NCBI GenBank assembly: GCA_951799445.1 | Contig: OX637296.1 | Location: 5,022,001 to 5,086,000 of the forward strand | Length of the DNA: 64,000 bases | Reading direction: 5' to 3' | DNA from: Pseudisothecium myosuroides | Taxonomy: Eukaryota > Streptophyta > Bryopsida > Hypnales > Lembophyllaceae | Shown here: positions 7,072 through 58,117 of the stretch, one piece after another | Position numbering within the stretch: the first letter of the stretch is position 1 | Layout of the letters: every line of letters begins with the position of its first letter | Program-made: the position numbers and the translations under genes | The notes under the pieces: generated by a model | Told to the model about the DNA's origin: nothing | What the model saw: the letters and a program-made list of their open reading frames with translations, nothing else | Databases searched by the model: none

Positions 7072-7734
7072 CCCCTAAATGCCCAAGGCCTGTTTTGAGC
7101 TTCTTGGATTTTGCTCTAAATTGAACAAAAAACCAACATTTTGATAAGTTGTATCAACTTTTTTTGAATTGTAACCGTACAAATTCAAACTAGATTCAAA
7201 CTAGACATGTTAGAGATCACATAGGAAAAGAAAATACAACAACATCAATTATGGATTGACATATTATAATGTTTGATCATGAAGGTGTTAAAACTGTGAA
7301 AGTGATTTGAAGTCTTTCAATCCTCTTTTCACATGTCAAATCTAAAAATTTGGTAAACAAAAAAATATGAGGTTAAAGGACCTAACATGCATAACCCCAA
7401 TCAATTTTCGGCTTCTCAAAATCTACTCTACATTATTTTTAAATGAAGTTCTAATGTGATTTTTCCTTCAAGATATAATATATTTGAGGCTCATTTCCAA
7501 GAGCCCTCAACACTATGGAAAGTCAAGACTGCAATGGGTAGTACCCTTGCACAAAATCTTGAATAGAAAAATCATAATCCATCATTTCCAAAATCGGATT
7601 TTTGATGCTAAAACTAGACTTCAAAAAGAATTTTTCTAAAATATAAACTACTAGAAATAGCAACTTGGTTAGGTTTTATTTAACTTCAAAGTATATTGTC
7701 GACACCCAAATCGGGTGCCTCGGGCATTTAGGGG
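7072..7734. mobile_element. TTAA-flanked element just downstream of the UGT gene
   Basis: CCCCTAAATGCCCAAGGCC follows TTAA (7068-7071) and GGGCATTTAGGGG precedes TTAA (7735-7738). At 663 bp it is shorter than the roughly 920 bp full-length members. It ends only about 45 bp from the UGT stop codon (7779-7781), so it may supply or disturb the 3' end of that transcript. Confidence 0.8.
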
Positions 7735-13519: not shown

Positions 13520-15373
13520 CCCCTAAAGGACTAGATTGGATTTTTTGGGGGCTACATAGCAATTTTGGATAGGATGGTGTGAATGACAATTTACATATTT
13601 TAGGCTGAAATTTTAATAGAAGGTGTGGACAAGGAATATCTTTCATGAGCATTAAATTTCATGACATTTGGAATTAAATATGAATAAAAATTTATGCCTA
13701 ATAAGTTACTTTTTTTGTAAATGGATAGTCTAGGTAGATTTAAAAAATTACTTTTTTTAGAAACAAAATTTTTTAATTGGTTTTCTAGATTTATATATAC
13801 ATGGAGAGCTTTGAATCATTCCATTGTGATTAATAAGATGAAAATTATGAGTTTTAGTTTGCGGGTAGTTATAAAATCTCTTACTCTAAAATAATCTTTG
13901 AAGTCCTTTATTTAACCCCTAAAGTTCCATGACTATGTTTTCCCCGAAAACGCTCAAAAACTGCCATTTTCAATACAAGTACCAAATTTTTGAAAAAAAC
14001 TTTTTTTGACACATATAACCATAGAATCTTGTAGTATGCTGACTTGAAAACACGTGGTAGAAAATTCAAAAATTTCCACTGCGTCGATTGCAAGATATTA
14101 ATGTTTGAATTTGCAGAAATCGTTTTTTTGGCCGTGCAGAAAATAAGGCAGCTGCACTTCAAAAGCTCATTTTTCTATGAAAAAATGTCCAAAATGGTGG
14201 TACTTTTTTGGATTCTTTTTTCAAGGCAAGTTGGATACATGCTTGAAAATTTTCACATCATTTGGAATTGTACAACATAGAAGAAAAATATAGTAAGTAG
14301 AAAGAAGTAGAGAATGACTCAAAATACAAAATCGTTAAGAACTTAGTCATGGAAATGTAAAATCCCAATGGTTGTAATATTATAACAAACAATCTACAGC
14401 CTAAGATTCTATTTTTTTCAAAAAATATTAAAAATTGATTGAAATAAATTAACAACTTCAAAGTTTATTTTAGAATAGAAGATCCATAACTGCCCGCAAA
14501 CTAAAACTCGTCATAACTTTTGACTCATTGATCAAAATGGAATGATTCAAAGCTTTCCATGTATATATAACTCTTGAAAACCAATTCCAAATTTTTGTTT
14601 TTGAAAAAAGTGATTTTTTCTTATCTGCCCGAACTGCTCAATTACAAAACAAACAAACATATTAGGCCATAACTTTTGACTCATATTTCCAAATGTCATG
14701 AAATTTGGTGCATATGAGAGATATTCCTTGTCCCCACCTTTTATCAAAATTTCAGACCCAATTATGGAAATCTCCAATCACACGTACCTGCCCAAAATTT
14801 CTATGTTGCCCAAAACTGCATGCTGGTTCTTTAGGGGTTAACTCAATTTTCAATATTTTTTGAAAAAAATAAATTATAGAATGTACATTGTTTATTACAA
14901 CATTGCAAACATTGGGATTGTCAGTTTTCAATTCCATGCCTACATTCTTAACAATTCAGTATTTTGAATCATTCTCTATTTGTTTTTTTATTTACAATTT
15001 CTTTCCTATATGTTGTACAATTCCAAATGATGTGAAATTTTTCAAGCATGTTACCAACTTGCCTTGAAGAATGAATTTGAAGAAGCGCCACCATTTTGGA
15101 CATTTTTTCATACAAATGTGAGCTTGTGAAGTGTAGCTGCGCTATTTTTTGCAAGGCCAAAAAAAGGATTTTGGTCAAGTGAAATGCAAATATTTTGCAA
15201 TTCCAAAGGTGGAAATTTCTGAAATCTTTTCTATATCTTCTCAAGTCAGCATACTACAAGATCCTAAGTTTACATGTGTCCAAAAATGTTTTTTTCTTAA
15301 AATTTGGTACTAGGACTAGAAATGACAGTTTTGAAGCATTTTTGGTGAAAACATAGTCATGAAACTTTAGGGG
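13520..15373. mobile_element. TTAA-family element (X-Y' orientation) carrying a nested copy
   Basis: CCCCTAAAGGACTAG after TTAA (13516-13519) and ACTTTAGGGG before TTAA (15374-15377). Its own sequence is 13520-13911 plus 14842-15373, about 924 bp, the family's normal length. It is split by a second member at 13916-14837. The split arms read in reverse orientation relative to the inner copy. Confidence 0.8.
13916..14837. mobile_element. Inner TTAA-family element, nested in its own kind
   Basis: CCCCTAAAGTTCCATGAC after TTAA (13912-13915) and GGTTCTTTAGGGG before TTAA (14838-14841); 922 bp, Y-X' type. The outer element reads ...CTTTATTTAA and TTAACTCAATTTTC on either side, so insertion was at an internal TTAA of the outer copy, which is now duplicated. 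Confidence 0.85.
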
Positions 15374-15792: not shown

Positions 15793-15836
<44 letters not shown>

Positions 15837-16387: not shown

Positions 16388-16391
16388 TTAA

Positions 16392-18309: not shown

Positions 18310-18313
18310 TTAA

Positions 18314-20666: not shown

Positions 20667-20869
20667 CACCTCAAGAGAAGGGAGTGTTTTAAGTATAGTC
20701 TTAGTAGTATAGTCCTATAAACAACGACCTTTTAGGAGATTTTTAGTAAAATTTTACTAAAAATATAAGTACTTTTAGTAAAATTTTACTAAAAATATCC
20801 TAAAAGGTTATTATTTATAGGACTATTCTACCAATACTACACTTAAAAACACCCCTTTCTCTTGTAGTG
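20667..20869. mobile_element. CACTA-type palindromic MITE
   Basis: 203 bp hairpin. The right end is CCCCTTTCTCTTGTAGTG; the left end (CACCTCAAGAGAAGGGAGTG) carries two changes. TTG flanks both sides (20664-20666, 20870-20872), a 3 bp target duplication. Same family as 35412-35614 and 41158-41379. Confidence 0.8.
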
Positions 20870-21191: not shown

Positions 21192-21344
21192 CACTACAAG
21201 AAAAGAAGGGTATAAATGACTTGTCCACAATGACTGCACCAACAAGAATGACTTCAAAATGGTCATTCTGTAGTCATTTTGCAGTCATTCTTGTTGGTGT
21301 AGTCATTGTAGACAAGTCATTTATACCCCTCTTTTCTTGTAGTG
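21192..21344. mobile_element. CACTA-type palindromic MITE, second subfamily
   Basis: 153 bp hairpin with ends CACTACAAGAAAAGAAGGG and CCCCTCTTTTCTTGTAGTG, flanked by ATC on both sides (21189-21191 and 21345-21347). The body is a near-perfect palindrome (ATAAATGACTTGTC and its complement). Confidence 0.9.
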
Positions 21345-21347
21345 ATC

Positions 21348-23552
21348 CTCCTAAGCCGTGTAGCACCTTCGTTCTTCAATGAAATAGAATTCAAAAAATT
21401 GTAACAAACAGAAAATCGTGAATTTGCGAAGTTGAACGTCAAACGCTGAACGCTTGAGTGTCAAATCCTATTGAGAAATCCGCGGTTCTTGCTTTTCTGA
21501 TAAACAACGTTGGATTGATGGCTTTGAGAGGCGTCCCAACTTTTCCCAAGAAGATCTACTACCATTAGTCATCGCCATTTGTGGCGATTTAATCAATGGT
21601 GCTGGAAGTAATGTTTTAATTTTTGAATAAGATCGGACGGCTGAGCTTATTTGGCAAGAGGGGAGAAGGGGAATATTTGCCACAAGGCTGTGCATATTCT
21701 TTTTGCCTCATTTTAAAGTGGTGAGGTTTTTTAAGAGGACTCCAAAACATATTTTTGTGCTTGAAAAGAGTTTTTATTTAACTTAGATAATTCAATTGGA
21801 TAGAATGTCCATTGCACTTATTGTTTATAATTACATATTTCTACTAGATTAAATGTATTTTCAAAAAATTTAAGCCCTAAATAAACAAGTATTCATTCAA
21901 CAGATGCATGAAATCTTTTGTAGGTTCACTTGAATGGATGTTCTGAAAATTTTGACACAAATTGTGAACAAACACTCCTTTCAATCCTAGTCAATGCATG
22001 CAAAATTGGTAGTTTTTGACAATTCCTCTTGAAAAATACCCCTAGTCTTTTACTCCTTAAGAATTAATGACTTCAAGACAAAAAAAAATATACTCACTTA
22101 TTTTCTTATTAGTCACTAAAAAATAAAAATAAAGTGATTCTTAGTTGAAAAATGTAATATAAAATTGTTAATGTTTCTCTTGCTATTGTAAAATCTATTT
22201 TTAGAAGTATTGAATTTAGATTAAAATATTTCCTTCTTATTGACTAAGTTTTCATATTGTCTATTTTTATGTATTTCAATATTTTCATCAATCATAAGTG
22301 ATTTTTCATCCAATTCACTACCTTCCATCTAGATTGAACAAGTATATAGTATACAAAACAATATCATTGACAATTACTCTAGCTATATTAAAAAATTAGC
22401 ATATTGGAAAAGTAATAGTCCCTTATATAAAATGGGTCTCATGCATTGATCTATTATAGGCAAACTTCCATGCACTTAGAATCGGCTAGACCTTGTATAA
22501 AGATAAAAATATATTATTTTGAAGTCTATATGGATTGCTTTTAGTTTGTCAACATGACAACACTACTTTGAAAATGAAGTTTCTTCCAATTCACTTAGAA
22601 GTAGAAGCATCATGTATTTCAATCTTGGTGTCACACATTGGTGTTTGATGTGAAACCTAACGTGGAACCCTAGATGACCAAATTCTTAATTTATCCCGGC
22701 CACTTCAAAAAATGTTTGAAATTATTTTTTTCTTTGAAAGTTTGAATGCATCATGAAACTCAATGAAGGCACTTCCAACTCTAGAAAAGTCCAAAATTAA
22801 TTTCCATTTCCAACTTAAAGTAGAACATCCCATTCCGCGCCCTATATCCATCCTTGAGTCTTGCTTCTTCCCCCAAAACCAACCTCTTCATGATGCAATT
22901 CCACTGAAGTTCATTCACCTTCAAGATATTGATATATCCTGAATTCCTACTTTTTGAAGAACGTTTATGTACACTGAGAGGTACTCGGAGAGGTAGCTCT
23001 TAACTATCATCTCAAAAATTTATAGAAAATTCGAAACAAATAATTTTGGATTAATTTTTTTTTCCACTTAGTTTTTCTCCAAAAAGCTAATCACTTCAAA
23101 CATAGAAGTCCGCTTTTACGCACTAGGAATTGTCACACCTTGTCCAAGAATGAAACTCCTATGAAGAACAAGAAGGTAATTAATGGAGTGAAAAGAAAGA
23201 GCCTATAGGATCTCTTTTCCATGAAGAAGGTGTAACATCTCTTTTGCAAAGCTCTCCAATGACCATTCTTCCTGCACGAAAACTTCTTCACGCCCATTCT
23301 TCATTTGAAAGGAGAAAAAAAAAACTTCTCAATTTTCAGAGAATAAACCCTCTGCAACTCAAGGAAAGAGTGCCACGTCCTCATTCTCTCAAGAGAGGAC
23401 CCTTGTCATTGCAAGTGAGCAGTAGACTACATTAGGGTTTGGACCCCGTCTCGCACATTCTGCCATTGTTTTCTAGTTCCGAATTCGGTGTGCAGACATT
23501 GCGAGGTCGAATTTATCCCCCTTTCGCAACCAAACCGTATTTCTTAGCAACC
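21348..23552. other. No gene recognised; ends in the COX5C-A promoter/leader
   Basis: AT-rich to about 23230, then richer in CT/GC toward the COX5C start, as expected of a leader. TTCTTAG just before the ATG could be the acceptor of a 5' UTR intron, a feature known in plant COX5C genes, but the donor was not identified. Confidence 0.35.
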
Positions 23553-24551
23553 ATGAGTGCCGCAGCCAAGTTACCCGCGCACGCCGTGGCGCAGGCTTCC
23601 AAGACGAGTCCCAACTTGTTGCGAGAAATTTTCTATGGCATAGGCCTTGGAATTTTCGGTGAGGGCCTGAATCCCGACTTCCCCTTTCTTTTCTTTCCTG
23701 TTCTGGTATCGTATTCGATGTTGATTTTTTTCTGTTTAAATTCTATCTTTACTTTTGTAGTCGGGACTACAATGAAAGGATTCCCGGGATTAGGTCGGAA
23801 GTCGCTCTCTGTGTTGGAAATTCTTGAATTAGTTGTTGGTGATAGTGTTGGCTTCAGTGTCGAGGTTGGAGTGTTTGTCAGGACGCAAAGAATCTCTGCG
23901 CTTCTGCGTGTTTTAAGAATCTGCTAGATTTTTTTCTAGATTGTATGAACTTCCCTTCGTGTTCTTGATATTCTTACTCTAATTTTTAGTTTTTAATAGA
24001 GCTGACTGTAGATTTCTTTTGTTATGCGCTAGTTCTTTGGTTTAGACAGGCATTCCCTCACAAGAATCTGAGCTTGTTACTTGATCATTACCTCAAGAAA
24101 TTTCGGCGCTCTGCGTCTTTCAAGATTAGAGGATCCACTCTAGAAATTCTTTTCTCTAGAATTATAACTTTCTTTATTTCGTCGGGGTTCTTACTTTTGC
24201 TTTGCTTTTTAATAGAGGTGATATTTAGAATGTTGTTTTGTGCGCTAGTTCTTTGGTTTAGACAAGGATTCTCTTATGAGAATCTCAACTTGGTACTTGA
24301 TTTCTACCTACCGCCCTGCATGTTCTTAAGATATCCTGTAGGAGTGTTAGCTTATTTTCTAATGCGTTTGGTTTGGTTTTCAAAGCGTTGTTTTGTTTTG
24401 AGTATTGATTTTATGTTTCGATGGCTTTGAGTGTGGCATGACAGGTGGCTCGTTCTGGAAGGTGCATCACTTGAATGAGCGCCGCAAGACAGAGGAGTTC
24501 TATGCCCGATTGGAGGCTGGAGAGATCACAGTTCAGGCTGCGGAAGAGTAA
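23553..24551 (+). CDS. COX5C: Cytochrome c oxidase subunit 5C, copy A (intact)
   Basis: Small nuclear-encoded subunit of plant mitochondrial complex IV, in the inner membrane. Exons 23553-23658 and 24445-24551 join in phase 1 (TTC G|GT GGC) across an intron with GTGAGG and GACAG ends. The product is 70 residues, close to the family's usual 63-64. Residues 24-40 (LREIFYGIGLGIFGGSF) form the single membrane segment. WKVHHLNERRKTEEFY matches the family hallmark WKMHHWNEQRKTR.FY. The acidic C-terminus ends QAAEE. Copy B at 29696 shares exon 2 almost exactly, but exon 1 and the intron differ more. After the stop, TTGTGAGTAAGT looks like a donor, so a 3' UTR intron is possible. No presequence is expected. 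Confidence 0.92.
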
Positions 24552-26259
24552 ATATTTCAATTGTGAGTAAGTGGCATATCTTGGTGAAGTCCTCCTTCTG
24601 CTCTGTTTCGTTCCATCTCTATTTTGTGCTGTATTCGTCGGGGATAATCAGGCACGTCTTATAAATTTCTTATCTATGATGAGTGTGTATCCAGGATATG
24701 CTTAGTTATACAAATATGGTTTTGATTTTGAAGGCATTTTTTTTATGTCTGCAGTAGATCTTACAGTGAAATGTGGGGTTTTCGACAGGTTTATAGGACT
24801 TCACAGGCATTTCTCAGCTTATTGGAGGGAATTGTGTTGGGGGAGTCGTGTTACGTTCGCACCAATGACCATGAAATAGTGAAATGTCAGGAAGATGGAT
24901 CTGTGTGTTGGAGCTGTATCTGGAGTTGGTTATGGTTTAGAGAAGTCTTAACTTTCTTTTATCACTAGCTACAGTGATACCAGCAAAAGAATTTTCTCAT
25001 TCTTAGAGGTGATCTTATGCACCGCTTGCTCAATAAAATTTAAGATGGTTTGACAACACAAAGTCTCATACTTTTGCAATACAATACTGGTTGTTGAGGT
25101 GTAGTTATCTTCGAAGGCTCCTAACCTTCTCTAGGCTTCTTTTTAATCTCTATTCTGTATGTCCTGTAATTTCGCCTTCGTTGCTTTCTTTTTACCGTGA
25201 CTCAGCTAGAAGATCACTATCAAATCTCTGTGAAGCAGAAACGCGCATTCTGCTATGCGCTGTACCAGATTGGACAACCGAATTTCTACAACAGAGGGCA
25301 GAGTGGACTGAGGACCGGTACTCTCAACCCTCTCTAATTGCACATTCACTGATTGCACAAATCTGACTGTTCAATTTTCACATGTCAAGTTGTGAACACG
25401 TGGCAGGGTGCATTTTGAACCCTTGTCCATCAAGGCAGTGCAATTAGAGAGGGTTGAGTGTACTATTCTACTGTAGAGTATCTCCTCTGCATCAGACGTT
25501 GATTCTGTTCAGTAATGTCGATTGAATATGTTTTCCAATTTCTGCTCCTGAACTTTCCTTGAAGCAGCTGAAGAACTGATAAACCCTCCATGGAAGATAC
25601 TCAAGTAACTGCATCTCTCCACGTGGAAGGATGGCCGTTGCTCAGTAACCATTCCCTGAGTACCGGTGTGCCCTCCTTTTGATACCCTGTTCCCTGTCAT
25701 TTCGTCAATACGGTTTATCAATAGAGCTTAGGGCATAACGTTGAGCTATCTTAACCGTCAGACTGACAGCATGTGCATGACAACAGCACATTGGTGAAGT
25801 TTCATTTTCTCTCGCAGCTGCCCGGTATGGAGCTTACAGTTTGTACATTTGCCTTCGATTTGTGATCAAGATAGACCTCAGTTCTGACATTACACTATTG
25901 GACCGTCTCTCAAGATTACTCTGTCGGACAGGTACGTGAACATTGAAGCTTTAGTTTGAAAGTATGGTTGCTGACTGTTTTAAAGAAGATGGTTCTGCTG
26001 TGGCGTGTAAAGATTTCATTTTTTTTCACGACCTCGTGTTAGGTCTTTTATTTTCCAGTTTCAATGTGCTAAAGTATTGAAGTTTGAAAAGCTCATGCGC
26101 AGAGTTCTTGGTGTGTGTTTGATCTGGCCTTCTCTTGCAGGAAGAGCTGAGGGAGACCACCAGGGGAAAAAAACAGCAATTGAAAGATTTTGTCAGTCCT
26201 AATCTTTGTTAATATCAAGCAATCACTACTGATTCGCTAATTCTCGGGTCGTCGGCGTC
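24552..26259. other. COX5C-A downstream region, duplicated after copy B
   Basis: Highly similar to 30481-32165, more so than the coding exons are to each other. It contains a TA-flanked hairpin (25321-25460), the fragment shared with 675-770, and no open gene except at its end (26260). Possible 3' UTR exon begins after GACAG near 24789. Confidence 0.6.
25321..25460. mobile_element. TA-flanked hairpin MITE (Tc1/mariner, pogo-like ends), copy 1
   Basis: Ends CTCTCAACCCTCTCTAATTG and, inverted, CAATTAGAGAGGGTTGAGTG, with TA outside both ends (25319-25320, 25461-25462). The CA-CTCAACCCTC...AATT pattern recalls pogo/Tigger ends. It predates the tandem duplication, since the second unit holds it at the same place. 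Confidence 0.7.
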
Positions 26260-26404
26260 ATGGCTTCACGGGGTGTCACTGCTGCTGCCTTCATTTGGGG
26301 CAAGAAAGCTGGTGCTGGAGCGGGGAGCGGCGGCCATGGCTACCAAACTCAGGCCACGTCCATACCGCGACATATACTTAGTGCAATTTTCATCGGCATT
26401 GTTG
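26260..26404 (+). CDS. Conserved small exon/ORF between COX5C copies, copy A
   Basis: ATG at 26260 opens 48 codons plus one base up to G|GTAAATAAG. Read as an exon it ends in phase 1; read through, it stops two codons later, giving a 50-residue protein. The product starts MASRGVTAAA, has a Gly-rich basic segment (KKAGAGAGSGGHG) and ends with one membrane-like segment (IPRHILSAIFIGIVG). The last part aligns loosely with the COX5C membrane segment (SPNLLREIFYGIGLGIFG), with the splice at the same Gly. A near-identical copy lies at 32166. No downstream second exon was recognised. It may be a COX5C-like first exon, an unrelated small membrane protein, or a remnant. Confidence 0.5.
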
Positions 26405-27103
26405 GTAAATAAGCAAGTTTTTTTCCATGCCTGTCTTTCTTGATTTTGTAATGTATACAATTTAGTTTCTTCCTCTTTTGAAACCTTCTTCTTGGACGTA
26501 CTCTGTCAACTTGGACTTTGGTGATATGAGAACTCTTGAGGATCTTTCTCGAGAAAGGTCTCGGCATTTCAGAAAATACCAAACGAATGCAACTGTGTCG
26601 TTTTACATTGGACACTGGCAATCGGAGCTGGAGCATGTAAACGATTGAGCGAACATTGTATGCATGGGTTCAAAAAAATAGTCGTTCGAATAGAATTGTG
26701 TTACTCTTCAGAACTACTAAAAAGCATGAGGTCAAATTTGGAGCTTTCTTGTCCTTAAAAGGGTTAAGCAGTTTTGAGTAGATCATATGCGGACTTTTTT
26801 TGTACAATTTTTTTTAGCAGTGCTTGCAATATGCTGCATTGATAGTGGTGATATAAAATTTGACCCTGTTTGAAGTATATTTTCACAAGATCACTCAAAT
26901 TGTTCATTTCGTACCATTGCCTTTTGCAGTTAAGAGTGATGGAGATAAGCAAATGTAGCCCGTTTCTTGTATTCATATAGAACTTGTTGCAAAAATAGAC
27001 TTGCATGTGCTTGATGTTAGTCCTAGACCAGGGAGATCAATCTTGCATTGAGCTCTTGCAATCTATTGTTACAACGTTCCTTTCTTGTTTTAACAACAGG
27101 ACA
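26405..27103. other. Duplicated spacer with a copy-A-specific 290 bp segment
   Basis: Aligns with 32311-32721 except that about 26755-27045 has no counterpart in the second unit, an insertion here or a deletion there. No gene recognised. Confidence 0.5.
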
Positions 27104-27107
27104 TTAA

Positions 27108-27319
27108 CCCTAACGTCCATTTTCTGGACGATGAACAGAAGGCTTCAAGGCACTCTGTAGTCCAACCAACTTCTCATTCATCCAATGTAATGCTTGAAAT
27201 TAGAAAAGACAACCTTCCTTAACAACCACATTCATAAAAAATTTGGTAAATGATATTTTTGTACAAAGATATAAGCAAAATTGTGCAAAAATTCAAAAAA
27301 GGATTGAGGTATTTAGGGG
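27108..27319. mobile_element. Small TTAA-flanked element with a paralogous empty site
   Basis: 212 bp: CCCTAACGTCC after TTAA (27104-27107) and GTATTTAGGGG before TTAA (27320-27323). The second COX5C unit reads ACAGGACATTAAAAGATTTTA without interruption (TTAA 32722-32725), matching both flanks here with one TTAA. Terminal repeats are short (CCCTAA). Confidence 0.85.
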
Positions 27320-27528
27320 TTAAAAGATTTTACAAGAGAGTGATATGTTGGAATCTTTGTCAGAGTTGTCCGTTGTTAGTAACATTGCTTACCAATGTTT
27401 TGTTAATCCAACCTACTCTACTCAATTAGCATAGAATGATAACCATACTATTAATTACAAACACTAAAATTACATGTCCTCAATAATACTAATTGTGAAC
27501 ATTTAACGTAAAGAACACTAAATATTAA

Positions 27529-28271
27529 CCCCTAAAGGACCAAGGTGCATTTTTTGGCAACATAGCAATTTTGGGCAACTCACTACGAATGGAGTTTTTA
27601 TTTTTTTTTCTTTGAAAATTTCACACAATATGTGCCCAAGGAGTAGCTTTAAGGCCCAACAATTTTCAAAACTTTTGACTTCATAGTTAAAAAGTTATTG
27701 TATGATATGTGATTTTCATTACTCGGCGGGCAGCCCGGGCAGCCCAAAAAACTTCTTTAAGAATCACTTTTTAAAAAAATAAAAATTTGAAATTGGTTCT
27801 TTAGGTTTATATCTACGCGGGAAGCTTTGAATCATTCCATTTGGATTAACGAGTCAAAAGTTATGAGGAGTTTTAGTTTGCGGGTAGGTTAGGAGTCTTT
27901 GAAAGCCATACCTACCCGCAAACTAAAACTCCTCATAACTTTTGACTCGTTAATCCAAATGGAATGATTCAAAGCTTCTCGCGTAGATATAAACCTAAAG
28001 AACCAATTTCAAATTTTTATTTTTTTTTAAAAGTGATTTTTAAAGAAGTTTTTTGGGCTGCCTGGGCTGCCCGCCGAGCAATGAAAATCACATATCATGC
28101 AATAACTTTTTAACCATGAAGTCAAAAGTTATGAAAATTGTTGGGCCTTAAAGCTACTCCTCGGGCACATATTGTGTGAAATTTTCAAATAAAAAAAAAA
28201 AAAAACTCCATTCGTAGTGAGCTGCCCAAAATTGCTATGTTGCCAAAAAACGCACCTTGGTCCTTTAGGGG
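27529..28271. mobile_element. TTAA-flanked 743 bp palindromic element (X-X')
   Basis: Two arms of about 360 bp are near-perfect reverse complements around a short loop at about 27887-27910. Ends are CCCCTAAAGGACCAAGG, then TTTTTTGGCAACATAGCAAT. TTAA flanks at 27525-27528 and 28272-28275. The paralogous spacer (33030-33110) reads AACACTAAATGTTAACTAGA with a single TTAA, an empty site. If transcribed it would fold into a long hairpin. Confidence 0.92.
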
Positions 28272-28275
28272 TTAA

Positions 28276-29695
28276 CTAGACATTTGTAGTTGTTACAGTG
28301 AAACTCAAATGAACATTTTGTGAAACTAATAGGAAATTTTGGTAGGAATGTTTATTCATTCCAATATTTAAGCCAAAAATAGAAGCATTTATGTGCATAT
28401 TGGATGCTCTCAAGTACAAGCCTAAAACTATAGAGATATCCCCATTGTTGTTACCCTTCCAACTGCTAAACCAATTAGATGTTTCAATAGTAATTTTTGC
28501 ATTTTCATTTAGTCAATAGATTAAATTGATGCAATTACATCAAACACAATGACATGTTGAGAGAGAAAAAGTGTTCATATTAGAATAGAAAGTTATGATT
28601 TTGAAACAATCGGCATTCATTGGCCAAGGTTTCAAATAATGTTGTACATTTTAGAATGATTTCTTAGGATTATCTCTATTGTAATGTAGGACTGTACTCC
28701 ATTGGATAAAATATACAATTAGAAAGGACAAGAATATTTCTCCTCTTATTATTCACAATGTTAAATTGTATAGTTTTGATATGATTAATCTTTTTTTAAA
28801 TGATATAGTAAGTTGACTGAGGAAAAAAATAGATTTCTTTTTTGGTCATTCATCTGCAAAAATCATTTTGATGTTGAAATGAACCCAACTATAAGCAATA
28901 GCCAATTGACAACCACAGAAATGTCTACCTTATCACTGCTTCAAATATTAGCACTTGTATATATGTGTTTTTTTTGGTAAAATCTACCTTGAAGAATTAA
29001 AATCTACCTTTAATTCAGGCTACACTACCGTAGTCTCAAGGCCATATTAAGTTATCTATCTTTCTTCTTCATGACTTTAGACCCAAATTCCAACAATTAA
29101 TTTTGCCACCACATCCTAACTCATACAGTTAAAATTGCCCTAGTATTACATATATACTTTCTACTGTAATATTACATTCTAAAATATTTTGAAAATATAA
29201 CCATTCCATTCACTATCATTTCACAAATTTAAAAACCAGACATGGCATCCTTGATCTTTGTACAATTCATCTTGTATTGTAGAATAGTCTTTATTATACA
29301 TAAAATATCTCATTTTACCGAGAAAGACTTCTTCTTATCTCCAATAAATTTTCTTGTGTTCTTAACTAACAATTTGATTCTTTTACAATCTTCTCCATCA
29401 ATCTGAAAACTCCATAATAAATTTACACATTGGCGAAGAATGCTACATGCAAAAGCAACCCTACAAAAGAATGCTACAAATCACAAACCTCTCCCACCAT
29501 AAAATTGAAATTCAAGACTAGAAATAGGAAACTTCGAGGAAGGAGCGATAAGTGTCCTTAGGGTTTGGCTCCCCGTCTCGCACGACCTTCACTTGCGATT
29601 TCGAGGTTTCGAGCTTGCGAGCTTGATTGAAGTCGTGGACGAGATTTGCTTTGCTAGGGGAACGAATTTTGTTACAAATTTGTGTGGTAGTAACC
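28276..29695. other. Spacer and upstream region of COX5C-B
   Basis: Similar over its length to 33070-34485, which lies upstream of copy C, so it belongs to the tandem unit. Sequence becomes GC-richer from about 29540 (leader). No other gene recognised. Confidence 0.5.
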
Positions 29696-30480
29696 ATGAC
29701 TGCGGCAGCGAAATTGCCTGCGCACGTCGCGGCGCAGGCATCCAGGGCTAGTCCCAATCTGTTACATGAAATTTTCTATGGCATCGGCCTCGGGATCTTC
29801 GGTGAGCCGACCCTGTAATCTAGTTCGCGACATTTCGAACGTTTTTATTTTCTGTTCTTGTTGCAATGGTAGAATTCGTGCTTGCATTCATGGTTTCGGA
29901 GATTGGTTGTATAGTTTCTAGTTTTGGAGCTCGGTCCAGATTCGAGGTTTTGGGGGTTCTGTTTCTGCTAACTAGTTTTGGGTTTTTCTCTTTCTTTCGT
30001 CTTACGGCCTGTGTACTTGAGCTTTTACTTCTAGATTTAATTGAAAATTTTGGAAGAATGGTGAAAGAATGGTGGCCAATTTTGGTTAGGTGGAAGGGCA
30101 AACGGAATGTTGAGAATTAGTAGTGACAAGATTCGATTTGCCGTCTTTTGTTTCTCTTAGGGTTCCGATCGGAAAATGTTCGTTATGTCGAAGGGCAAAT
30201 GGTATTTCGAGACTCAGTACTGAGAAGTTTCGTTTTGCCATCTTTTGTTGCTTTTAGGGTTTCGAAGATTGCATTGTTTGTCAGGTTTAATTTTGTCGTT
30301 GTAATGTTTTAAACGAATGGATAATTTGTTCGACTGCACAAGGTTTTAATGGGCTTTGAGTGTGGGATGGCAGGTGGCTCATTCTGGAAGGTGCATCATT
30401 TGAACGAGCGCCGCAAGACGGAGGAATTCTATGCTCGATTGGAGGCAGGAGAGATCACTGTTCAGGCTGCGGAAGAGTAA
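29696..30480 (+). CDS. COX5C: Cytochrome c oxidase subunit 5C, copy B (intact)
   Basis: Same subunit as copy A. Exons 29696-29801 and 30374-30480 join in phase 1 (TTC G|GT GGC) across a 572 bp intron (GTGAGC...GGCAG). The product is 70 residues: the N-terminus MTAAAKLPAHVAAQASRASP differs from copy A at a few places. The membrane segment, WKVHHLNERRKTEEFY and the end are the same. All eight exon 2 differences from copy A are synonymous, so both copies appear to be under purifying selection. Exon 1 differs by about a fifth, and the introns do not align well; this intron instead matches the intron of pseudogene C. Confidence 0.92.
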
Positions 30481-32165
30481 CTATTTCAATTGTGAGTAAG
30501 TGGCATATCTTGGTGAAGTACTCTTGCTGCTCTGTTTCGTTCCATCTCTATTTTGTGCTGTATTCGTCGGGGATAATCAGGCACGTCTTATAAATTTCTT
30601 ATCTATGATGAGTGCGTATCCAGGATATGCTTAGTTATACAAATATGGTTTGATTTTGAAGGCATTATTTTATGTCTGCGCTGTGATATTCTTGTGCAGT
30701 AGATCTTACTGTGAAATGTGGCATTTTTGACAGGTTTATAGGACGTCACAGGCATTTCTCAGCTTATTGGAGGGAATTGTGTTTTGGGAATCGTGCACCA
30801 ATGACCATGAAATAGTGAAATGTCAGGAAGATGGATCTGTGTGTTGGAGCTGTATCTAGAGTTGGTTACGGTTTAAAGAAGTCTTAACTTTCTTTTATCA
30901 CTAGCTACAGTGATACCAGCAAAAGAATTTTCTCATTCTTAGAGGTGATCTTATGCACCGCTTGCTCAATAAAATTGCTTGACAACAGAAAATCTCAATA
31001 CTTTTGCAATACAATACTGGTTGTTGAGCTGTAGTTCTCTTCAAAGGCTCCAAACTCTCTCTAGGCTTCTTTCTATCTGTATCCTGTATGTTTTGTAATG
31101 TCGCCTTCTTGTCATTTACGCTGCTCCAGAAATCGTGGGTTTCTTTCCACCGTGACTCAGCTAGAAGATCACTACCTAATCTCTATGAAACAGAAACGCG
31201 CGCTCTGCTATGTGCTGTACCGGACTGGACAACCGAATTTCTGCAACAGAGGGCAGAGTGGACTGAGGACCGGTACTCTCAACCCTCTCTGATTGTACAC
31301 TCTGTAATTGCACATTCCCTGATTGCACAAATCCGACTGTCCAGTTTTCACATGTCAAGTTGTGAACACATGCCAGGGTGCATTTAGAACCCTTGTCCAT
31401 CAAGGCAGTGCAATTAGAGAGGGTTGAGTGTACTATTCTACTGTAGAGTATCTCTTCTGCATCAAACATTGATTCTGTTCAGTAATGTCGATTGAATATG
31501 TCTTCCAATTTCTGCTCCTGATTTCCTTGAAGCAGCTGAAGAACTGATAAACCCTCAAGAAGATACTCAAGTAACTGCATCTCTCGACGTGGAAGGATGG
31601 CCGTTGCCCAGTAACCATTCCCTGAGTACCGGTGTGCCCTCCTTTTGATACCCTGTTCCCTGTCATATCGTCAATACGGTTTATCAATAGAGCTTAGGGC
31701 ACAACGTTGAGCTATCTTAACCGTCAGATTGACAGCATGTGCATGACGACGGCACATTGAAGTTAATGGTGAAGTTTCATTTTCCTTCGATTTGTGATCA
31801 AGATAGACTTTAGTTCTGACATTAGACTTTAGGAGCGTCTCTGAAGATTACTCTGTCGGACAGGTACGTGAACATTGAAGCTTTAGTGTGAAAGTATGGT
31901 AGCTGACTGTTCAAAGAAGATGGGTCTGCTCTGGCAGGTAACGATTTTATTTTTTTCACGACCTCGTGTTAGGTCTTTTATTTTCCAGTTTCAATGCGCT
32001 AAAGTATTGAAGTTTGGAAAGCTCATGCGTGGGCCTTCTCTTGCGGGAAGAGCTGAGGGAGACCACCAGGGAGAAAAAACAGCAATTGAAAGATTTTGTC
32101 AGTCCTAATCTTTGTTGATATCAAACAATCACTACTGATTCGCTAATTCTCGGGTCGTCGGCGTC
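30481..32165. other. COX5C-B downstream region
   Basis: Second copy of 24552-26259 with few changes, including the hairpin at 31276-31430. No separate gene recognised before 32166. Confidence 0.6.
31276..31430. mobile_element. TA-flanked hairpin MITE, copy 2
   Basis: Same position and ends as 25321-25460, with TA at 31274-31275 and 31431-31432. It carries about 15 extra bases near the left arm (CTCTGATTGTACACTCTGTA), which weakens the hairpin. Confidence 0.7.
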
Positions 32166-32310
32166 ATGGCTTCACGGGGTGTCACTGCTGCTGCCTTAAA
32201 TTGGGGCAAGAAAGCTGGTGCTGGAGCGGGGAGCGGTGGTCATGGCTACCAAACTCAGGCCACGTCCATACCGCGACATATACTCGGTGCAATTTTCATC
32301 GGCATTGTTG
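32166..32310 (+). CDS. Conserved small exon/ORF, copy B
   Basis: Paralog of 26260-26404: same ATG, same length (145 bp), same phase and a donor-like G|GTAATTAAG. Residues 11-12 are Leu-Asn instead of Phe-Ile, and a Ser in the membrane-like segment is Gly. The frame is otherwise kept, with silent changes in the Gly-rich part. If not spliced it stops two codons on, at 50 residues. No second exon found downstream. Confidence 0.5.
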
Positions 32311-34485
32311 GTAATTAAGCACTTTTTTTCCATGCCTTTCTTTCTTGATTTTGTAATGTATACAATTTAGTTTCTTCCTCTTTGAAACCTTCTTGGACGT
32401 ACTCTGGCGACTTAGACTTTGGTGATATGAGAACTCTTGAGGATCTTTCTCAAGGAAGGCCTTGGCATTTCAGGAAATACAAAACGAATGCAACTGTGTC
32501 GTTTTACATTGGACACCGACAATCAGATCTGAACCTCGCAAACGATTGAGTGAACATTGCATGCATGGGTTCAAGAAAATAATTGTAATAATAGAATTAA
32601 AATCCATGTGTAACTCTTCAGAACTACTGAAAAACATGAGGTCAAATAGGGAGCTTTCTTGTATGGAGCTCTTGCAATCTATCGTTACTCAACGTTCGTG
32701 TCTTGTTTTAACAACAGGACATTAAAAGATTTTACGAGAGAGTGATATGCTAGAATCTTGGTCAGAGTTGTCCGTTGTCAGTAACACTGCTCACAATGTT
32801 TTTATAATATAACCTACTCTACTCAATTAGCATACAATGATAACCATATATAGTGTTGGTACTATTAATTACAAACACTAAAATTACATGTCCTCAATGA
32901 TACTAAAGGTGTGTTTTCATTTAGTGTTAAAGATTGTTGTTACTAATGATCTTAATAATGAATATAGACCTACTTTTGGACTGGATTCACATTGCAAACA
33001 TCACCCCTAAAACCAAGTGCGAACATGCCCTAATTGTGGACATTTAATGTTACCAACACTAAATGTTAACTAGACACTTGTAGCTGTTGCGGCGAAACTC
33101 AAATGAACAATTTGTGAAACCATTAGGAAATATGGTAGGAACATGTTTTGGTATGCATAAGTTACATTGGTTGCTCTTTAGTGTAAGCCTAAAACTAGGG
33201 AGATATCCCCATTGTTATTGCCCTTCCAATTGCTAAACCAACTAGATGTTTCAATAGCAGGTTTTTTGCATTTTCATTTAGCCAATAGTTTAAATTGATG
33301 CAATTACATATAGCTCAATGACATGTTGAGAGTGAAAGTGTCCGTATTAGGACAAAAGTTGTGGGTTTGAAACAACCGACATTCATTGGCCAAGGTTTCA
33401 AACAATGTTCTACATTTTAGAATGATTTCTTAGGATTATCCTTATAGTAATATAGGTACTCAATTGGGTAAAATATACAACTAGAAAGGGCAAGAATTTT
33501 CCCCTTCTTCTTATTCACAATGGTAAGTTTGTGGTTTAATTTGACATAAATATTTTTTTTATGATATAGTGAGTTGACTAAGGAAGAAAATAGATATTTT
33601 TTTGTCATTTTTTTGCAAAAACAATTTGATGTTGAAATTAACCCAATTATAAGCAATAGCCAATTGACAACTATAGAAATGTCTATCTTACTACCACTTC
33701 AAATGTTAGCACTTGTATTGTAGGTAAAAATACGTGGCTTTGTTAATAAATTAAAACAACCTTGAAGAATTTTTTTAATTCATACTACACTACCATAATC
33801 TCAAGGCTATATTAAGTTATCTATCTTTCTTTTTTAAGGCTTTAGCCCCAAATTCCAACAAATTTTTTGGCCACCACACCCTAACTAGTAAACCTATATT
33901 GCCTTATTATTACCTATACACTTTCTAATATCACATTCTAATATATTTTGAAAATATAACCATTCCATGTACTACCATTTAGCTGTTCAATGTAGGATGC
34001 CATATTTGGATGTACTACCATTCTACAAACTTAACAACCAGATATGGCATCCTTGAACTTAGTACAATTCATCTCGTAGAGTAATCTTTATTACAAATAA
34101 GATATCTAATTTTATTCACAAAGACACCTTTCTGCCTCCAACAAAAAAATTTATAATTTCTTCTAGCTATTTGATTCTTCTACAATTTTTTTCATCAATC
34201 TAACAACTCTATATAAAATCTATGTAACGGTGAAGAATGCTACATACAAAAGTAACCCTACAAAAGAATGTTACTAATCACAAACCTCTTCCACCATGAA
34301 ATTGAAGACTAGAATTCATAGGAAACTTTGAAGAAGGAGCGATAAGTGTCCTTAGGGTTTGGCTACCCTTCTCGCACGTCCTTCACTTGTGATTTCAAGG
34401 TTTTGAGATTGCAAGCTTGATTGAAATCGTGGAAGAGATTTGCTTTGCTAGAAGAACAAACTTTGTTACAAATTTTGTGTAGTAG
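32311..34485. other. Spacer with two empty target sites
   Basis: Matches 26405-29680 minus the inserted elements. TTAA at 32722-32725 and at 33066-33069 are the unoccupied versions of the 27108 and 27529 insertion sites. From about 34200 it is the upstream region of copy C. No gene recognised. Confidence 0.6.
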
Positions 34486-34490
34486 TAGTA

Positions 34491-35040
34491 TGCCAGGCAG
34501 TAACTGCCTCTTTTTAGTGGATAGTGACACGGATGTCACTATCCACAATGTGCTCAAGAAAAAAAATCGGATTTATTTATTTTTTCAATTAACACACACA
34601 CATATCCCTCCCTTCATATTTAGCTCCAAAAAATTAAAAAATTAAATTAATTAAAAATTATTTTTCAAGTATCCACCCCATCCCACCTTTTTGTAATTTT
34701 GAGGTGGGATGGGGTTGGCAATCGATATGGGATATACCCCGTATCCATACCACATCCAAATCCGTATCCATAACTGTGTAGCATATCCATAGCTATATAT
34801 GTATCTATGCCATGATGTATCTGTACCGTAACCAAATCCGTATCCTATCCATATCCATATCATATTCCAAATTGTTTTTCGAATTGACGGCGTTCAAAAG
34901 AGGTTTGGTTTTTCTTTTTCACAATCAACGGCCCTCATTGATCGGAATTCTTGGATAGAATCGACAGGCAGAATTTTCTGATCTCACGAGATCAACAGTT
35001 GCTTGGAGGGGAACAATAGTGACAACCTCTTTTCAATGGA
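34491..35040. mobile_element. 550 bp insertion just upstream of pseudogene C, unknown class
   Basis: TAGTA is duplicated at 34486-34490 and 35041-35045, where copy B has a single GGTAGTAACCATG. The inner sequence has a hairpin (GTGGATAGTGACA-CGGA-TGTCACTATCCAC), many ATCCATATCC hexamers, and a direct repeat of CTCTTTTnA(G/A)TGGATAGT near both ends. No inverted ends or coding sequence. A relative lies at 11506-11887. Confidence 0.8.
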
Positions 35041-35411
35041 TAGTAACTATGATTGCGGTAGCGAAATTGCTTACGCACGTCGTGGCGCAGGCATCCAACG
35101 CTAGTCCCAATCTATTACATGAAACTTTCTATGGCATCGGCCTCGAGATCCTCAGTGAGCGGCCCCTATAATCTAGATTGCGACTTTTCGAACGTTGCAT
35201 TTCTCTGTTCTTGTTGCAATGGTAGAATTTGTGCTTGCATTCACGGTTTGGGAGATCGGTCATATAGTTTCTAGTTTTGGAGATTGGTCCAGATTTGAGG
35301 TTTTGGGGGGGTTGTTTGCTAACTAGTTGTTGTTGTTTTTTCTAGTTTTCTTCTTATTGACTGTATACTTGAACTTTTACCTCTAAATTTAATTGAAACT
35401 TTTGGAAGAAT

Positions 35412-35614
35412 CACTACAAGAGAAAGGGGTGTTTTAAATAGTGTCCTAGACATCACGTCTTTTAAGTAACGTCTTTTAAGTAAGTTTTTAAGTAAAATTT
35501 TACTAAAAAGACAATCTTTTTAGTAAAATTTTACTTAAAAACTTACTTAAAAGACGTTACTTAAAAGACGTGATGTCTAGGACACTACTTAAAACACCCC
35601 TTTCTCTTGTAGTG
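35412..35614. mobile_element. CACTA-type palindromic MITE in the pseudogene intron
   Basis: 203 bp near-perfect palindrome, ends CACTACAAGAGAAAGGGGTG and its complement, AAT on both sides. Copy B has the undisturbed GAAAGAATGGTGGCC here. Confidence 0.92.
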
Positions 35615-35658
35615 AATGTTGGCCAATTTTCGTTAGGTAGAAGGACAAATAGAATGTT

Positions 35659-35781
35659 CACTATAAGAAACCCATGTTTTTTTTGACGGATTTTTGATGT
35701 TACATTTGACATTATTGTTAACATGAAAACAAGTGGATGTCCAAAAAAATCCGTCAAAAAAAATGTAGGATTCTTATAGTG
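35659..35781. mobile_element. CACTATAAGAAA-type MITE in the pseudogene intron
   Basis: 123 bp, ends CACTATAAGAAACCCATG and GTAGGATTCTTATAGTG, GTT on both sides (35656-35658, 35782-35784). Copy B reads GGAATGTTGAGAATTAG with a single GTT (30109-30111). Confidence 0.9.
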
Positions 35782-39388: not shown

Positions 39389-39392
39389 TTAA

Positions 39393-40131
39393 CCCCTAAA
39401 GGACCAAGCTGCGTTTTTTGGCAACATAGCAATTTTGGGCAGCTCACTACGAATGGAGTTTTTATTTTTTTTCTTTGAAAATTTTACACATGTACCCAAG
39501 GAGTAGCTTTAAGGCCCAACAACTTTCATAACTTTTGACTACATAGATTAAAAGCTATTGCATGATATGTAATTTTCTTTGAACTTTGGGCAGCTCGGGC
39601 AGCTAAGAAAATTTCTTTAAAAATGACTTTTAAGAAAAATAAAAATTTGAAATTGGTTCTTTAGATTTATATATACTTGGGAAGCTTTGAATCATTCAAT
39701 TTCGATCAATGAGTCAAAAGTTATGAGGAGTTTAAGTTTGTGGGTAGTTATGATTTTCAAAGGCTCCATGCCTATTTGCAAACTTAAACTCCTCATAACT
39801 TTTAACTCATTGATCGAAATTGAATGATTCAAAGCTTCCTACGTATATATAAATCTAAAGAACCAATTTCAAATTTTTATTTTTTTAGAAAGTCATTTTT
39901 AAAGAAATTTTCTGAGCTGCCCGAGCTGCCCAAAGTTCAAAGAAAATCACATATCATGCAATAACTTTTTATCTATATAGTCAAAAGTTATAAGAAGTTG
40001 TTGGGCCTTAAAGCTACTCCTTGGACACATGTTGTGTAAAATTTTCAAAGAAAAAAAATTAAAACTCCAATTGTAGTGAGCTGCCCAAAATCACTATGTT
40101 GCCAAAAAAACGCAGCTTTTTCCTTTAGGGG
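39393..40131. mobile_element. TTAA-flanked 739 bp palindromic element (X-X')
   Basis: Second member of the 27529 type: CCCCTAAAGGACCAAGCTGC ends, near-perfect inverted arms around about 39760, TTAA at 39389-39392 and 40132-40135. Flanks also share GATTTCAAGCCT on both sides. Confidence 0.9.
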
Positions 40132-40135
40132 TTAA

Positions 40136-44568: not shown

Positions 44569-45133
44569 CCTCTAAAGTCCCATTGTCCCCTCGAGGGACA
44601 AAATAAAATTTGGGCAGGTCCCTATGACCTCAATTTTTGGTGAAACTTTTTAAATTTTTTTCATAAGATAGAAAATTGATTAGCTTTATGGGAATATAAT
44701 TTTTACTTCAATTGGTGCCTGGGAGCAAAAGTTATACCTTAAAAAGCCTTGAACTAAACTCGGTGGGCAGCACAAAATAAATTGCAAAAATTCAAAATAA
44801 TTTTTTTTCTACAATATTATATTTTTGTCTACATGTGACGCTTTGATTCATTTCATTTGGACTAGTTATGAGAAAGTTATGGACAATCTTATTTTTCGGG
44901 CAATCTAAGCACGTTCTTGAAAAAACCTTTTTGTCCAACTTTGATTGCTAATTTCTTCAAATCTGTACGATTAAATTTGATGAAATTTTTACCGCATGAT
45001 CTCAGACAAGTGAAGTACAAGATCCAACGGGTAGATTCTAAAAACATATTTTTTTTGCTTTCTTGGGTGAATGCAGCAGAAATGGCAGTTTTGAGTGGTT
45101 TTTGACAGAAAAATGGTCTTGGGACTTTAGGGG
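44569..45133. mobile_element. Diverged TTAA-family element (X-Y')
   Basis: Left end CCTCTAAAGTCCCATTGTCC (TTAA decayed to CTAG), right end GGGACTTTAGGGG before TTAG. X arm has CCCCTCGAGGGAC; Y' has GAAATGGCAGTTTTGAG. At 565 bp it has an internal deletion relative to 920 bp members. Confidence 0.65.
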
Positions 45134-53249: not shown

Positions 53250-55582
53250 CCCCTAAAGGACCGTTTGTCCCCTCGGGGGACAAATTGGGTCTGGGTAGGT
53301 TCCTAATGTCTCAATTTTTTTGAATTTTTTTGAATTTTTTTGAGGTTGTGTACTTTCCCGAGAGCTTTGTGGATATGTAGTTTTTTGTTCAATTGGATTC
53401 TGGATGAAGAAGTTATGGGCATTTTTCCACCAAGCCAAACTTGGGGGCAGGCTGGGCTGTCATATTTTAGTTGACTTCGGAGGGGGCAGGCTGTGCGGGA
53501 AGGAGGCGGAAGGCCAGGTGGGCAGCAGTTAAGCCCGCATTGGAATGGCTCGTTCCATTTGTTAAAAAACAAACAAACAAAACACGCAGTCAAGCTCGCG
53601 CCTAAGCCTGGTCGTGCGACCTCCGGTTGCAGGGAAGGGGATGGTCGGGGAAGGGCCCGTTCCTAAGTCGTAGGAGGGAGGAGCCGGATCGGGCGAGGCA
53701 GCAACGCTTGTGAGCTGCGGCCCTCAAGATTTCACTTTTGCATTAAGGTAGGAGGTCCAGAAATGGAGCATCCAAGCGCTGAAACTGAATTTTGGGGAGG
53801 TAAAACATCTTGAAATATTTTTCAGTAAATTTTCCTTGAAAGACAAGTGGAATTGAAATCTAACCCAAGTCATTTCATATATTTTGGACCTTTGTGGAAT
53901 TAGTTAAAAAAAATTGAAGTTGGAAAAAAGTGGTCATTTGTGGTCATCAAAATGGACCACCTCCTGAAATGTGCATAGGTGGTACATTGAAGAAAGCAAA
54001 ATGTACCTCTGAGTTATGTTTTATTTTAATGCCCACTCCGTTTTACAGCCTCCTACCTTACAAATTTTTTGCAATTTCTGTGTGTGCGCTGCATTTTATC
54101 ATCTGCAATATTAGAAATTTTAGGAATTGCTTTAGAATTATTTTTTCTATTATTTTATCCTAAGACTTGAATCTCGGTAGTGGATGGAACAAATTCTGAA
54201 GCAAATATGTAGGCGTATGAATTATTTTGGGGGAGAAGAAGAGGAATTAGCTAAAAAAAATTGGGGGGCATTCAAAGGTGAAAATATGAATTTATGGGAT
54301 TTTTATTTATTCTAATGTTGTAGATATTTGTGATTGTTCTAAGATACCTTGTCAATAAACAGTGAAATTATAGAGTATTTAAATTTTTTAGACCTTCTAT
54401 AGAGAACTAGAAATCTCCAAAGTCTTTACACGCAGCAAAAAATTGGAGGCTCATGCAAGCCTTTGACATTATTTTCTGGAGCAGGGATTGTTCAAATGGC
54501 TTGTCAAATGGCTTTTGATGGCTTGCATATCTGATGTCCTCAAAAAAATGCAACTTTGTTATCTCATGTCTTTTTTAGTTTGCATGCCATTTGATATATA
54601 TGGACATGGCACATGCAGGAGAACAAATAAGTTTTGACAGGGAGCTACCCAGAAGAAGAAACACAAGAACACAGTGATCTGGATGGAGATAAGGTAGTAA
54701 GCCTGTTTGCAAGAGCTAATTGCTTTTTAGGGGAAGGTGAACACCTCTAAGCAATTTTCAGTTCATTTTCACAAAAAAGAGAAATAAAAGTGGCATCTAA
54801 CCCAAGTCGTTTCATATTTTTTGGACCTTTGTGAGATTAGTTATGAATTTTTGAAGTTCATAGAGAAGTAGGTGGATAAAAACATGTGATGGATGGAGTA
54901 CATTGTAGGTGGATGATGTAGTGAGTTGGAGCTCCCATGCAATGGAACTGTAGGGAAATATCGGGAACGCATGGGAACAAACCTTTTTTCCCATTGCCCC
55001 AAAGACTTTGGCTCACCAAAGCCTTCTAATTTCATTAGAAATTAGAGTGTGTGTTTTTTTTGGAATTTTTTTTTTTGGAATTTGTCAAAGATAAATAAAT
55101 GTTTCAATCTACAGTTGGGATTTTTGAGTATTGAAATTATGAAGTAGAAAACTTGTTAACAAAAAAAAGGTAGTGTATTGTCAATTCTTCGGGCATTGTG
55201 TCATTACAAGAATTTTTTGGATGTGTTCCACACATTTTTTTGAAGTGAAATTTGGTGGACATATGTATAACATTATCCTCAGTATGTTAGATTTTTTTAA
55301 TTCAAACTCTTTAGTGCAAAAAATTTCCATGAATGGCGGTCAAAGGCAGCTGAAGTTGCAGGGCAGAGTTCAAAAAAACTTTTTTCCTAACTTTGAATGC
55401 TCATATCTTCCAATCCGTACGGTCAAATTTGATGAAATTTTTACCACGTGATCTCAGATAAGTGAAGTGCAGGATCCTATGGGTAGATTCTAAAAAAAAT
55501 TCTTTGGATTTCTTAAGTGAATGCACCAGAAATGGCAGTTTTGAATGTTTTTTGACAGAAAACACCCTCAGTCCTGTAGGGG
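53250..55582. mobile_element. TTAA-family ends 2.3 kb apart, with foreign interior
   Basis: CCCCTAAAGGACCGTTTGTC after TTAA (53246-53249), X arm to about 53460. A Y' arm runs from about 55330 and ends GTCCTGTAGGGG before TTAA (55583-55586). The middle holds a GC-rich block (53455-53730), a separate MITE (53746-54055) and unassigned AT-rich DNA. It is either one enlarged element or two truncated ones. Confidence 0.5.
53746..54055. mobile_element. TA-flanked MITE, AGGTAGGAGG ends
   Basis: Left AAGGTAGGAGGTCCAG and right CAGCCTCCTACCTTAC; TA on both sides. Inside is CCCAAGTCATTTCATATATT...GGACCTTTGTGG, also found at about 54795-54845, and in altered form at 63475. Confidence 0.6.
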
Positions 55583-57201: not shown

Positions 57202-58117
57202 CTCCTATTGTCAAGTCCCATTGTCCCCTCAAGGGACAAAATGGATTTCATGTGGTTTCAATATTTTTTTGAATTTTTTTGGCTAAAGATAGAAAAACAC
57301 ATTAGCTTTTTGAAAATAGAATTCTTAATTCAATCGGTGCTTGGGGGCAAAAGTTATGGCCCCCAAAGCCCAAATTTTAGTTTGGCACGTAAAAAAAAAG
57401 ACCCACAAAACTCAAAATAAAATATTAAATTTTCTTTTCTTAGTTTATATTTTACGTACATAAAAAGCTTTGATTCATTCCATTTGAATTTGTTATGTGA
57501 AAATTATGGACAGTCTTGTGTTTTGGACAGTCTAAGCATCTTCGTGAAAAAATAATGTGTAGGATTCATTTCTGAACTCAATTTTCACAATTTTTCAAAA
57601 AAAAGTTTCACAAGGTTTAGGGATTAAGATCTCTTGCTAGAACAATCTCACCGTTGAGATTAGTGTGTTTCAATTTCATCCTAGAGCTATCAATGGTTTT
57701 GTTTCCCTTTAATCTTGAACCTACTTCTATTGAACAATTTTTTAATGAATGAAATTTAAGTTGTTTTCTTTTGAATTTTTTTCCAAGAATCTTAGCTTAA
57801 TTTTTCAATATAAAAAATTAGAAATTCAAAATCAGTAGAGCAAAAAATTTAAGTTAAGAAGGTTTAAAGCCAAAAAAATCTAATCAAGCAAGGTACAAAT
57901 AAACTTGTTTTCTTCACTTTAAATGCAAATATCTTGCAATCTATGTAGTCAAAGTTTTTGAAATTTCTTCCACCCATTCTCACACTAGTCTAGCATCAAA
58001 TCTTGTAGTTAGTTGTGAAAAAAATAAACATTAAAATTTTTTTTTTTGCTCTTTGCAATAGAAATGGCAGTTTAGAATGGGTTTTTTTATAGAAAAAAGG
58101 CCTTAGGACTTTAGGGG
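57202..58117. mobile_element. TTAA-flanked element, full length (X-Y')
   Basis: TTAA at 57198-57201, diverged left end CTCCTATTGTCAAGTCCCAT, right end AGGACTTTAGGGG before TTAA (58118-58121); 916 bp. Arms match those of 44569 and 49155. Confidence 0.75.

Follow-up and report, generated by a model that had tools for sequence, protein, structure and literature searches.

A 743-bp palindrome flanked by TTAA as a probable non-autonomous member of the piggyBac group in a moss-like plant

Fold-back and palindromic MITEs of plants have long inverted arms and a small loop, Tourist MITEs are common in plants, and PIF/Harbinger elements make a 3-bp TTA/TAA duplication. The transposase of piggyBac is known chiefly from animals, and Kolobok transposase differs from it. 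According to the accessible text of PMC7351741, piggyBac performs both exact insertion at TTAA and precise excision; in cells, the native T. ni element is inactive when both of its ends are left ends and excises without integrating when both are right ends, while a hyperactive mutant uses two left or two right ends. The piggyBac terminal motif is given as CC[C/T]T (PMC2872659, in part). The superfamily is absent from the available text of two plant-transposon reviews (PMC10741241, PMC9033089), but in the excerpts at hand it is named among plant superfamilies (PMC10794571), recorded by a survey in all groups studied, land plants included (PMC4438587), and credited with 1230 PiggyBac annotation matches in a fern genome table (PMC6890710). 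The first-pass annotation of the DNA studied here had called such families poorly described in land plants, a remark that suits the two reviews and not the other three sources. Searches of open-access literature listed no description of native piggyBac or of TTAA MITEs in a moss, which is not proof of absence, and a 2017 paper notes, in the part available, that insect piggyBac had not yet been tried in Physcomitrella (PMC5505980).

The window analysed here is a stretch of 64,000 nucleotides from a host genome of 388 Mb in 222 contigs. Positions 23436-36410 consist of diverged tandem units that we call COX5C-like, a label assumed from the first-pass annotation and from an exon-1-like sequence present at two places; Pfam assigned no family to the frame holding this sequence. 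In the window self-comparison the units align at 24423-26752 versus 30352-32662 (88%) and at 28271-29692 versus 33065-34487 (77%), and a similar stretch recurs at 23545, 29688 and 35041. Unit 1 holds both TTAA insertions that were compared with unit 2:

27529..28271, no strand assigned: 743-bp palindromic (A/A') non-autonomous element
27525..27528, no strand assigned: left target-site copy, TTAA
28272..28275, no strand assigned: right target-site copy, TTAA
33066..33069, no strand assigned: single TTAA of the palindrome-free paralogous site
27108..27319, no strand assigned: 212-bp element with ends CCCTAACG.../...TTTAGGGG, TTAA at 27104-27107 and 27320-27323
32722..32725, no strand assigned: single TTAA of the paralogous site without the 212-bp element

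As the first-pass annotation had stated, the palindrome is bounded by TTAA on both sides, and the other COX5C-like unit carries the same flanks around one TTAA: the site reads ...AACACTAAATG TTAA CTAGACA... and aligns with the joined flanks of the palindrome. The arms (27525-27788 and 28012-28275) are 94% complementary over 264 nt, and the whole of 27529-28271 matches its own reverse complement at 94.8% over 755 columns. About 200 bp upstream, in the same unit, sits the 212-bp element, at whose position unit 2 reads ACAGGACA-TTAA-AAGATTTT without an insert. The earlier claim of exact TTAA targeting or precise excision holds as to the 4-bp TTAA duplication, while the two alternatives look alike at a single site. 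Unit 2 might once have held the palindrome and lost it by seamless excision, a history compatible with the interpretation preferred below, since a single TTAA can be restored when piggyBac excises (PMC7351741, available text) and the resulting sequence is identical; the insert-free sites fit such excision without proving it. We consider this history rather improbable, because it takes two events where one is enough and because unit 2 also lacks the nearby 212-bp element, a pattern consistent with two insertions having entered unit 1 later.

A genome search with the palindrome listed 5609 candidates. The 40 that were scored, the palindrome itself included, are full-length (724-749 bp) and match in both orientations, the other 39 with 93-97% identity to 27529-28271. 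The first-pass annotation had proposed examining TTAA at other genomic copies, and the outcome agrees with its expectation: with element ends taken where the terminal motif lay no more than 6 bases from a match end, 28 of the 28 copies examined among the 40 scored are flanked by TTAA at left and right, and their outer flanks differ. This completeness also bears on PIF/Harbinger (Tourist-like) MITEs with a 3-bp duplication, a reading that draws on TTAA including both TTA and TAA. Full TTAA on both sides of every copy examined argues against it, and the PF13843 transposase of related coding elements refutes it, so that we give it next to no probability.

Eleven elements, the palindrome among them, were delimited in the window by self-comparison and hand pairing of ends, several single ends staying unpaired. 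Besides those listed above they are, with end types designated A, B and C:

13520..15373, + strand: A..B element interrupted by a relative nested in it, flanked by TTAA (13516-13519, 15374-15377)
13916..14837, - strand: 922-bp A..B element nested at an internal TTAA of 13520-15373, the homologous site being TCAA
4514..5430, - strand: 917-bp C..B element, B end on the left
7072..7734, no strand assigned: 663-bp TTAA-flanked element with CCCCTAAATG ends, adjoining a UGT frame
39393..40131, no strand assigned: 739-bp palindromic element, 87-89% identical to the arms of 27529-28271 (more diverged)
44569..45133, + strand: degenerate C..B element with CTAG/TTAG flanks in place of TTAA
49155..50085, + strand: 931-bp A..B element
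53250..55582, + strand: 2333-bp C..B element, an apparent internally deleted derivative, by its match to the L058/L059 element; Pfam detected no transposase in it
57202..58117, + strand: 916-bp C..B element

Apart from the two A/A' palindromes, four of the eleven measure 916-931 bp and others 212, 565, 663 and 2333 bp; 13520-15373 minus its nested insert comes to about 928 bp. TTAA flanks both sides of 10 of the 11, the exception being 44569-45133 with its CTAG/TTAG flanks; in an end profile built from the other ten, TTAA stands at 20 of 20 ends, and conservation starts sharply at TTAA, with none outside. Together the ten TTAA-flanked elements make up 9308 bp, or 14.5% of the window (the nested one counted inside its host). 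When the outer parts of 13520-15373 are joined via one TTAA, they align with the nested element itself, which has TCAA at that point, and this brings the insert-free paralogous sites to three, two with TTAA and the third, in a diverged copy, with TCAA at the TTAA position. Comparison of joined flank pairs with the window gave a junction-spanning match for 3 of 11 (the join of 44569-45133 was set two bases off), and the joined flanks of 13912-14841 gave an additional, weaker one.

The terminal CCCCTAAAGG is common to A, B and C ends, whose sequences diverge further in. With at most one mismatch allowed, the window has 21 occurrences of it where 2.3 are expected, and 0 of 100 shuffles reached 21; TTAACCC occurs 24 times, while the five other orders of two T and two A before CCC occur 2, 5, 7, 8 and 9 times. 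In 20 arbitrary 10-kb genome stretches TTAA precedes 19 of 29 CCCCTAAAGG-like sites; for 30 shuffled words, none of their 192 sites has TTAA in front. The remaining 10 of the 29 have no TTAA, which counts against the preferred interpretation, with 6.4 sites expected by chance. The strict end pattern including TTAA marks 24 ends in the same samples, and seven hand-made end pairs enclose lengths of 627-2161 bp, with five in the range 887-936 bp. Element ends read 5'-CC...GG-3', with exceptions having T at position 1 or 2. The main family starts CCCCT, its fourth base being C as in coral CMITE III and in contrast to the CC[C/T]T motif; CCCT starts are found at one end of the 212-bp element and at the right ends of L054 and L056, two of the transposase loci described next. 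A scan of IMG/VR for TTAACCCCTAAAGGACC returned 0 matches.

Within the window, Pfam was applied to 10 of the 38 frames that reach 100 aa and to six reading frames of 52900-57299, 58900-63800, 44200-49100 and 15400-20300; it detected no DDE domain in these. Across the genome, a search for PF13843 gave at least 116 loci; these were the ones scored among 899 candidates, every one passed the cut-off (best 1.7e-83) and many lack stops. The same search was positive in 0 of 14 control genomes. One element, C5:31905448-31911073, has TTAA and CCCCTAAAGGACC at both ends, with 5618 bp between the TTAAs, a C end at the 5' side (L063) and a B end at the 3' side (L060). Its L057 frame contains PF13843 (E=4.9e-81) and runs open for 758 codons, an open frame that may be less than the complete reading frame; the transposase gene has more than one exon. 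Against solved chains it scores 1.8e-33 with 6x67 (named 'Transposase') and 6.5e-23 with piggyBat, and its three aspartate motifs align with those of 6x67 in TVDE, VMDN and GVDVADQ contexts. We take 6x67 to be the T. ni piggyBac transposase and these aspartates to be the catalytic residues.

Ten of the PF13843 loci (L049-L058) were retrieved. L057 shares 67% of 532 aligned residues with L058, and since L053 and L054 are only 36% and 41% identical to L058, at least three piggyBac lineages coexist in this genome; other right ends among the loci are CCCTGAAACG and CCCTAAAGCGACGG. The L058 element ends 3' in TTAACCCCTAAAGGACCAAGGGTG with TTAA at C10:10315267-10315270 (L059), and its 5' end was sought in L061 and L064, which yielded only different small elements, most of them degenerate. 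Used as a protein query, the L058 frame returned 107 matches, all PF13843, the sole organism-named one being from an insect and the rest from JGI/Logan/ENA; because matches must have 5-residue words in common with the query and be of similar length, distant plant relatives could be missed. Another lineage is represented by:

C2:3388809, C3:42017039, C4:12669447, C9:25478737 and C10:4148811: L049-L053, frames up to 1056 codons

These five copies are 99.90-100% identical over 4116 nt, and such near-identity on five contigs points to very recent movement or duplication of a lineage that was probably active very recently. Six more PF13843 loci have equal scores and 1091-codon frames. At about 147-150 of L055, two piggyBac-type ends of unlike sequence abut at one common TTAA, as if one element had inserted beside another.

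The flanks of L057 and L058 match window elements. Element 4514-5430 resembles the C5 element at both ends, its C end agreeing with the 5' end of the latter at 92% (100 nt) and its B end with the 3' end at 77% (307 nt); in 53250-55582, positions 1089-2341 match the 3' part of the L058/L059 element (80.6% over 1270 nt) and the first 122 nt the 5' end of the C5 element (72%). Small and transposase-bearing elements have the termini CCCCTAAAGGACC in common. A longer coding member between the same ends had been suggested as a check: a PF13843 frame does lie between TTAA-CCCCTAAAGGACC ends on C5, although its inner ends are C and B and those of the palindrome A and A. Among the three superfamilies that the first-pass annotation had considered, it is piggyBac that the PF13843 transposase between shared ends supports. 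An origin from another TTAA superfamily, Kolobok or Sola3, with merely similar piggyBac ends, could appeal to the TTAA duplication of Kolobok and to Sola elements reported from the moss Physcomitrella (excerpts of PMC10741241, PMC9033089). It is largely refuted, Sola3 being unlikely, and we rate it very improbable overall: the terminus, the B end (about 300 nt) and the C end (100 nt) of window elements recur on PF13843-coding elements, and Kolobok ends are 5'-RR..YY-3' (PMC9587614, accessible part), the opposite of those found here.

For the palindrome the connection is less direct. No A-ended transposase-bearing copy was seen among the loci examined, so the link from palindrome to transposase runs through the terminal 34-36 nt of the palindrome, which alone match the coding elements (86-89%), and through the A..B elements. 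The palindrome's arms match the A halves of the latter at 72-76% (nested 13916-14837), 69-71% (host 13520-15373) and 62-64% (49155-50085), and the B ends of A..B elements match the 3' ends of coding elements at 67-76% (72-76% over about 200 nt for 49155-50085, 67-68% for the nested element). This tie is the weakest step of the chain. The palindrome may have been moved by a piggyBac lineage other than the C..B lineage, which would be compatible with the interpretation preferred here. The divergence of L053 and L054 from L058, the other right ends and the lack of an A-ended coding copy speak for such a lineage; the match of the palindrome's termini to C..B elements and the B end common to A..B elements speak against it, and we regard it as unlikely.

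Taken as a whole, the palindrome is best interpreted as a non-autonomous (MITE or fold-back) member of the piggyBac group in a moss-like plant, to which, together with the mobilisation proposed here, we assign a probability of about 0.93. Besides the missing A-ended coding copy, the CCCCT start, the CTAG/TTAG flanks of 44569-45133 and the behaviour of native T. ni piggyBac with two equal ends speak against it. The elements have inserted at TTAA with a 4-bp duplication, their ends are shared, and they have coding relatives. The transposase of C..B elements like C5:31905448-31911073 would recognise the ends of small elements in trans, cut them out and paste them into new TTAAs. The elements of about 920-930 bp may be internally deleted derivatives, and the palindromes may go back to an A..B element whose A half was duplicated as an inverted copy, a form that then multiplied. 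The two window palindromes have loops that are homologous by eye, which suggests one origin. Their arms are more alike within a copy (96% for 27525-28275, 93% for 39389-40135) than between copies (87-89%), so that the founder of each would have had near-perfect arms. Homogenisation of the arms was also considered and is weakened: in L001-L008 (n=8), within-copy identity (96.4-98.9%) is only slightly above the between-copy mean of 97.1%.

Other features lie in the same window. The UGT frame at 7779-8756 has its best named relatives in mosses (Ceratodon 53-57% among the top matches, Physcomitrium 56%), with matches of up to 87% among entries without organism name; on this ground the host is probably a moss. 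The open frame at 19538-20248 (- strand) encodes a HUH endonuclease domain of Replitron type (PF21859, E=9e-10), and mosses are among the groups from which Replitrons have been reported (PMC10741241, available text). Small palindromes with CACTACAAGA-type ends lie at 21192-21344, 35412-35615, 41158-41380 and about 20672-20869, the first three with readable 3-bp duplications (ATC, AAT and AGT). We take them to be CACTA-like palindromic MITEs, and they differ from the piggyBac palindromes in their 3-bp duplications as opposed to the 4-bp TTAA. The full-palindrome form is common to unrelated transposon types in the window.

These elements are a new, well-documented plant example of a known superfamily and include many derivatives; transposase, ends and target, all from a single plant genome, jointly identify the superfamily. 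Moss genetics could make use of a scar-free transposon adapted to plants, and the symmetry of the palindromes makes them natural material for asking why insect piggyBac needs unequal ends: the spread of A/A' elements here, set against the requirement of native T. ni piggyBac, suggests that the enzyme or the end may be more tolerant of equal ends. More tentatively, and at somewhat under even odds, the piggyBac elements of mosses may form a large radiation with recent activity, in which the transposase accepts two equal ends and full palindromes have therefore been successful. If so, plants would have a seamless-excision TTAA transposon system of their own, unlike native insect piggyBac with its need for two different ends.

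Compared with described systems, the elements share with T. ni piggyBac (6x67/6x68) the TTAA target, the 4-bp duplication, the C-rich ends and a DDE_Tnp_1_7 transposase with three aligned aspartate motifs, and the left and right ends of C..B elements differ as those of piggyBac do; the plant host, the gene split into exons and the abundant equal-ended derivative set them apart. Kolobok has the TTAA duplication in common with them but not the ends, and Sola (Sola1 in Physcomitrella; PMC10741241, PMC9033089, in excerpt) the 4-bp duplication and the moss host, the distinction from Sola being the PF13843 transposase. Long inverted arms and a small loop recall the fold-back MITEs of plants, unlike which the palindromes have a TTAA target and piggyBac ends. 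Coral CMITEs, as described in the accessible part of PMC2872659, are likewise non-coding, with TTAA and CCC ends (family III starts CCCCTCAGTG), and are likewise tied to piggyBac elements by their ends, but they measure about 100 bp, whereas the elements here measure 212-931 bp, accompanied by full palindromes of about 740 bp, and reside in a plant.
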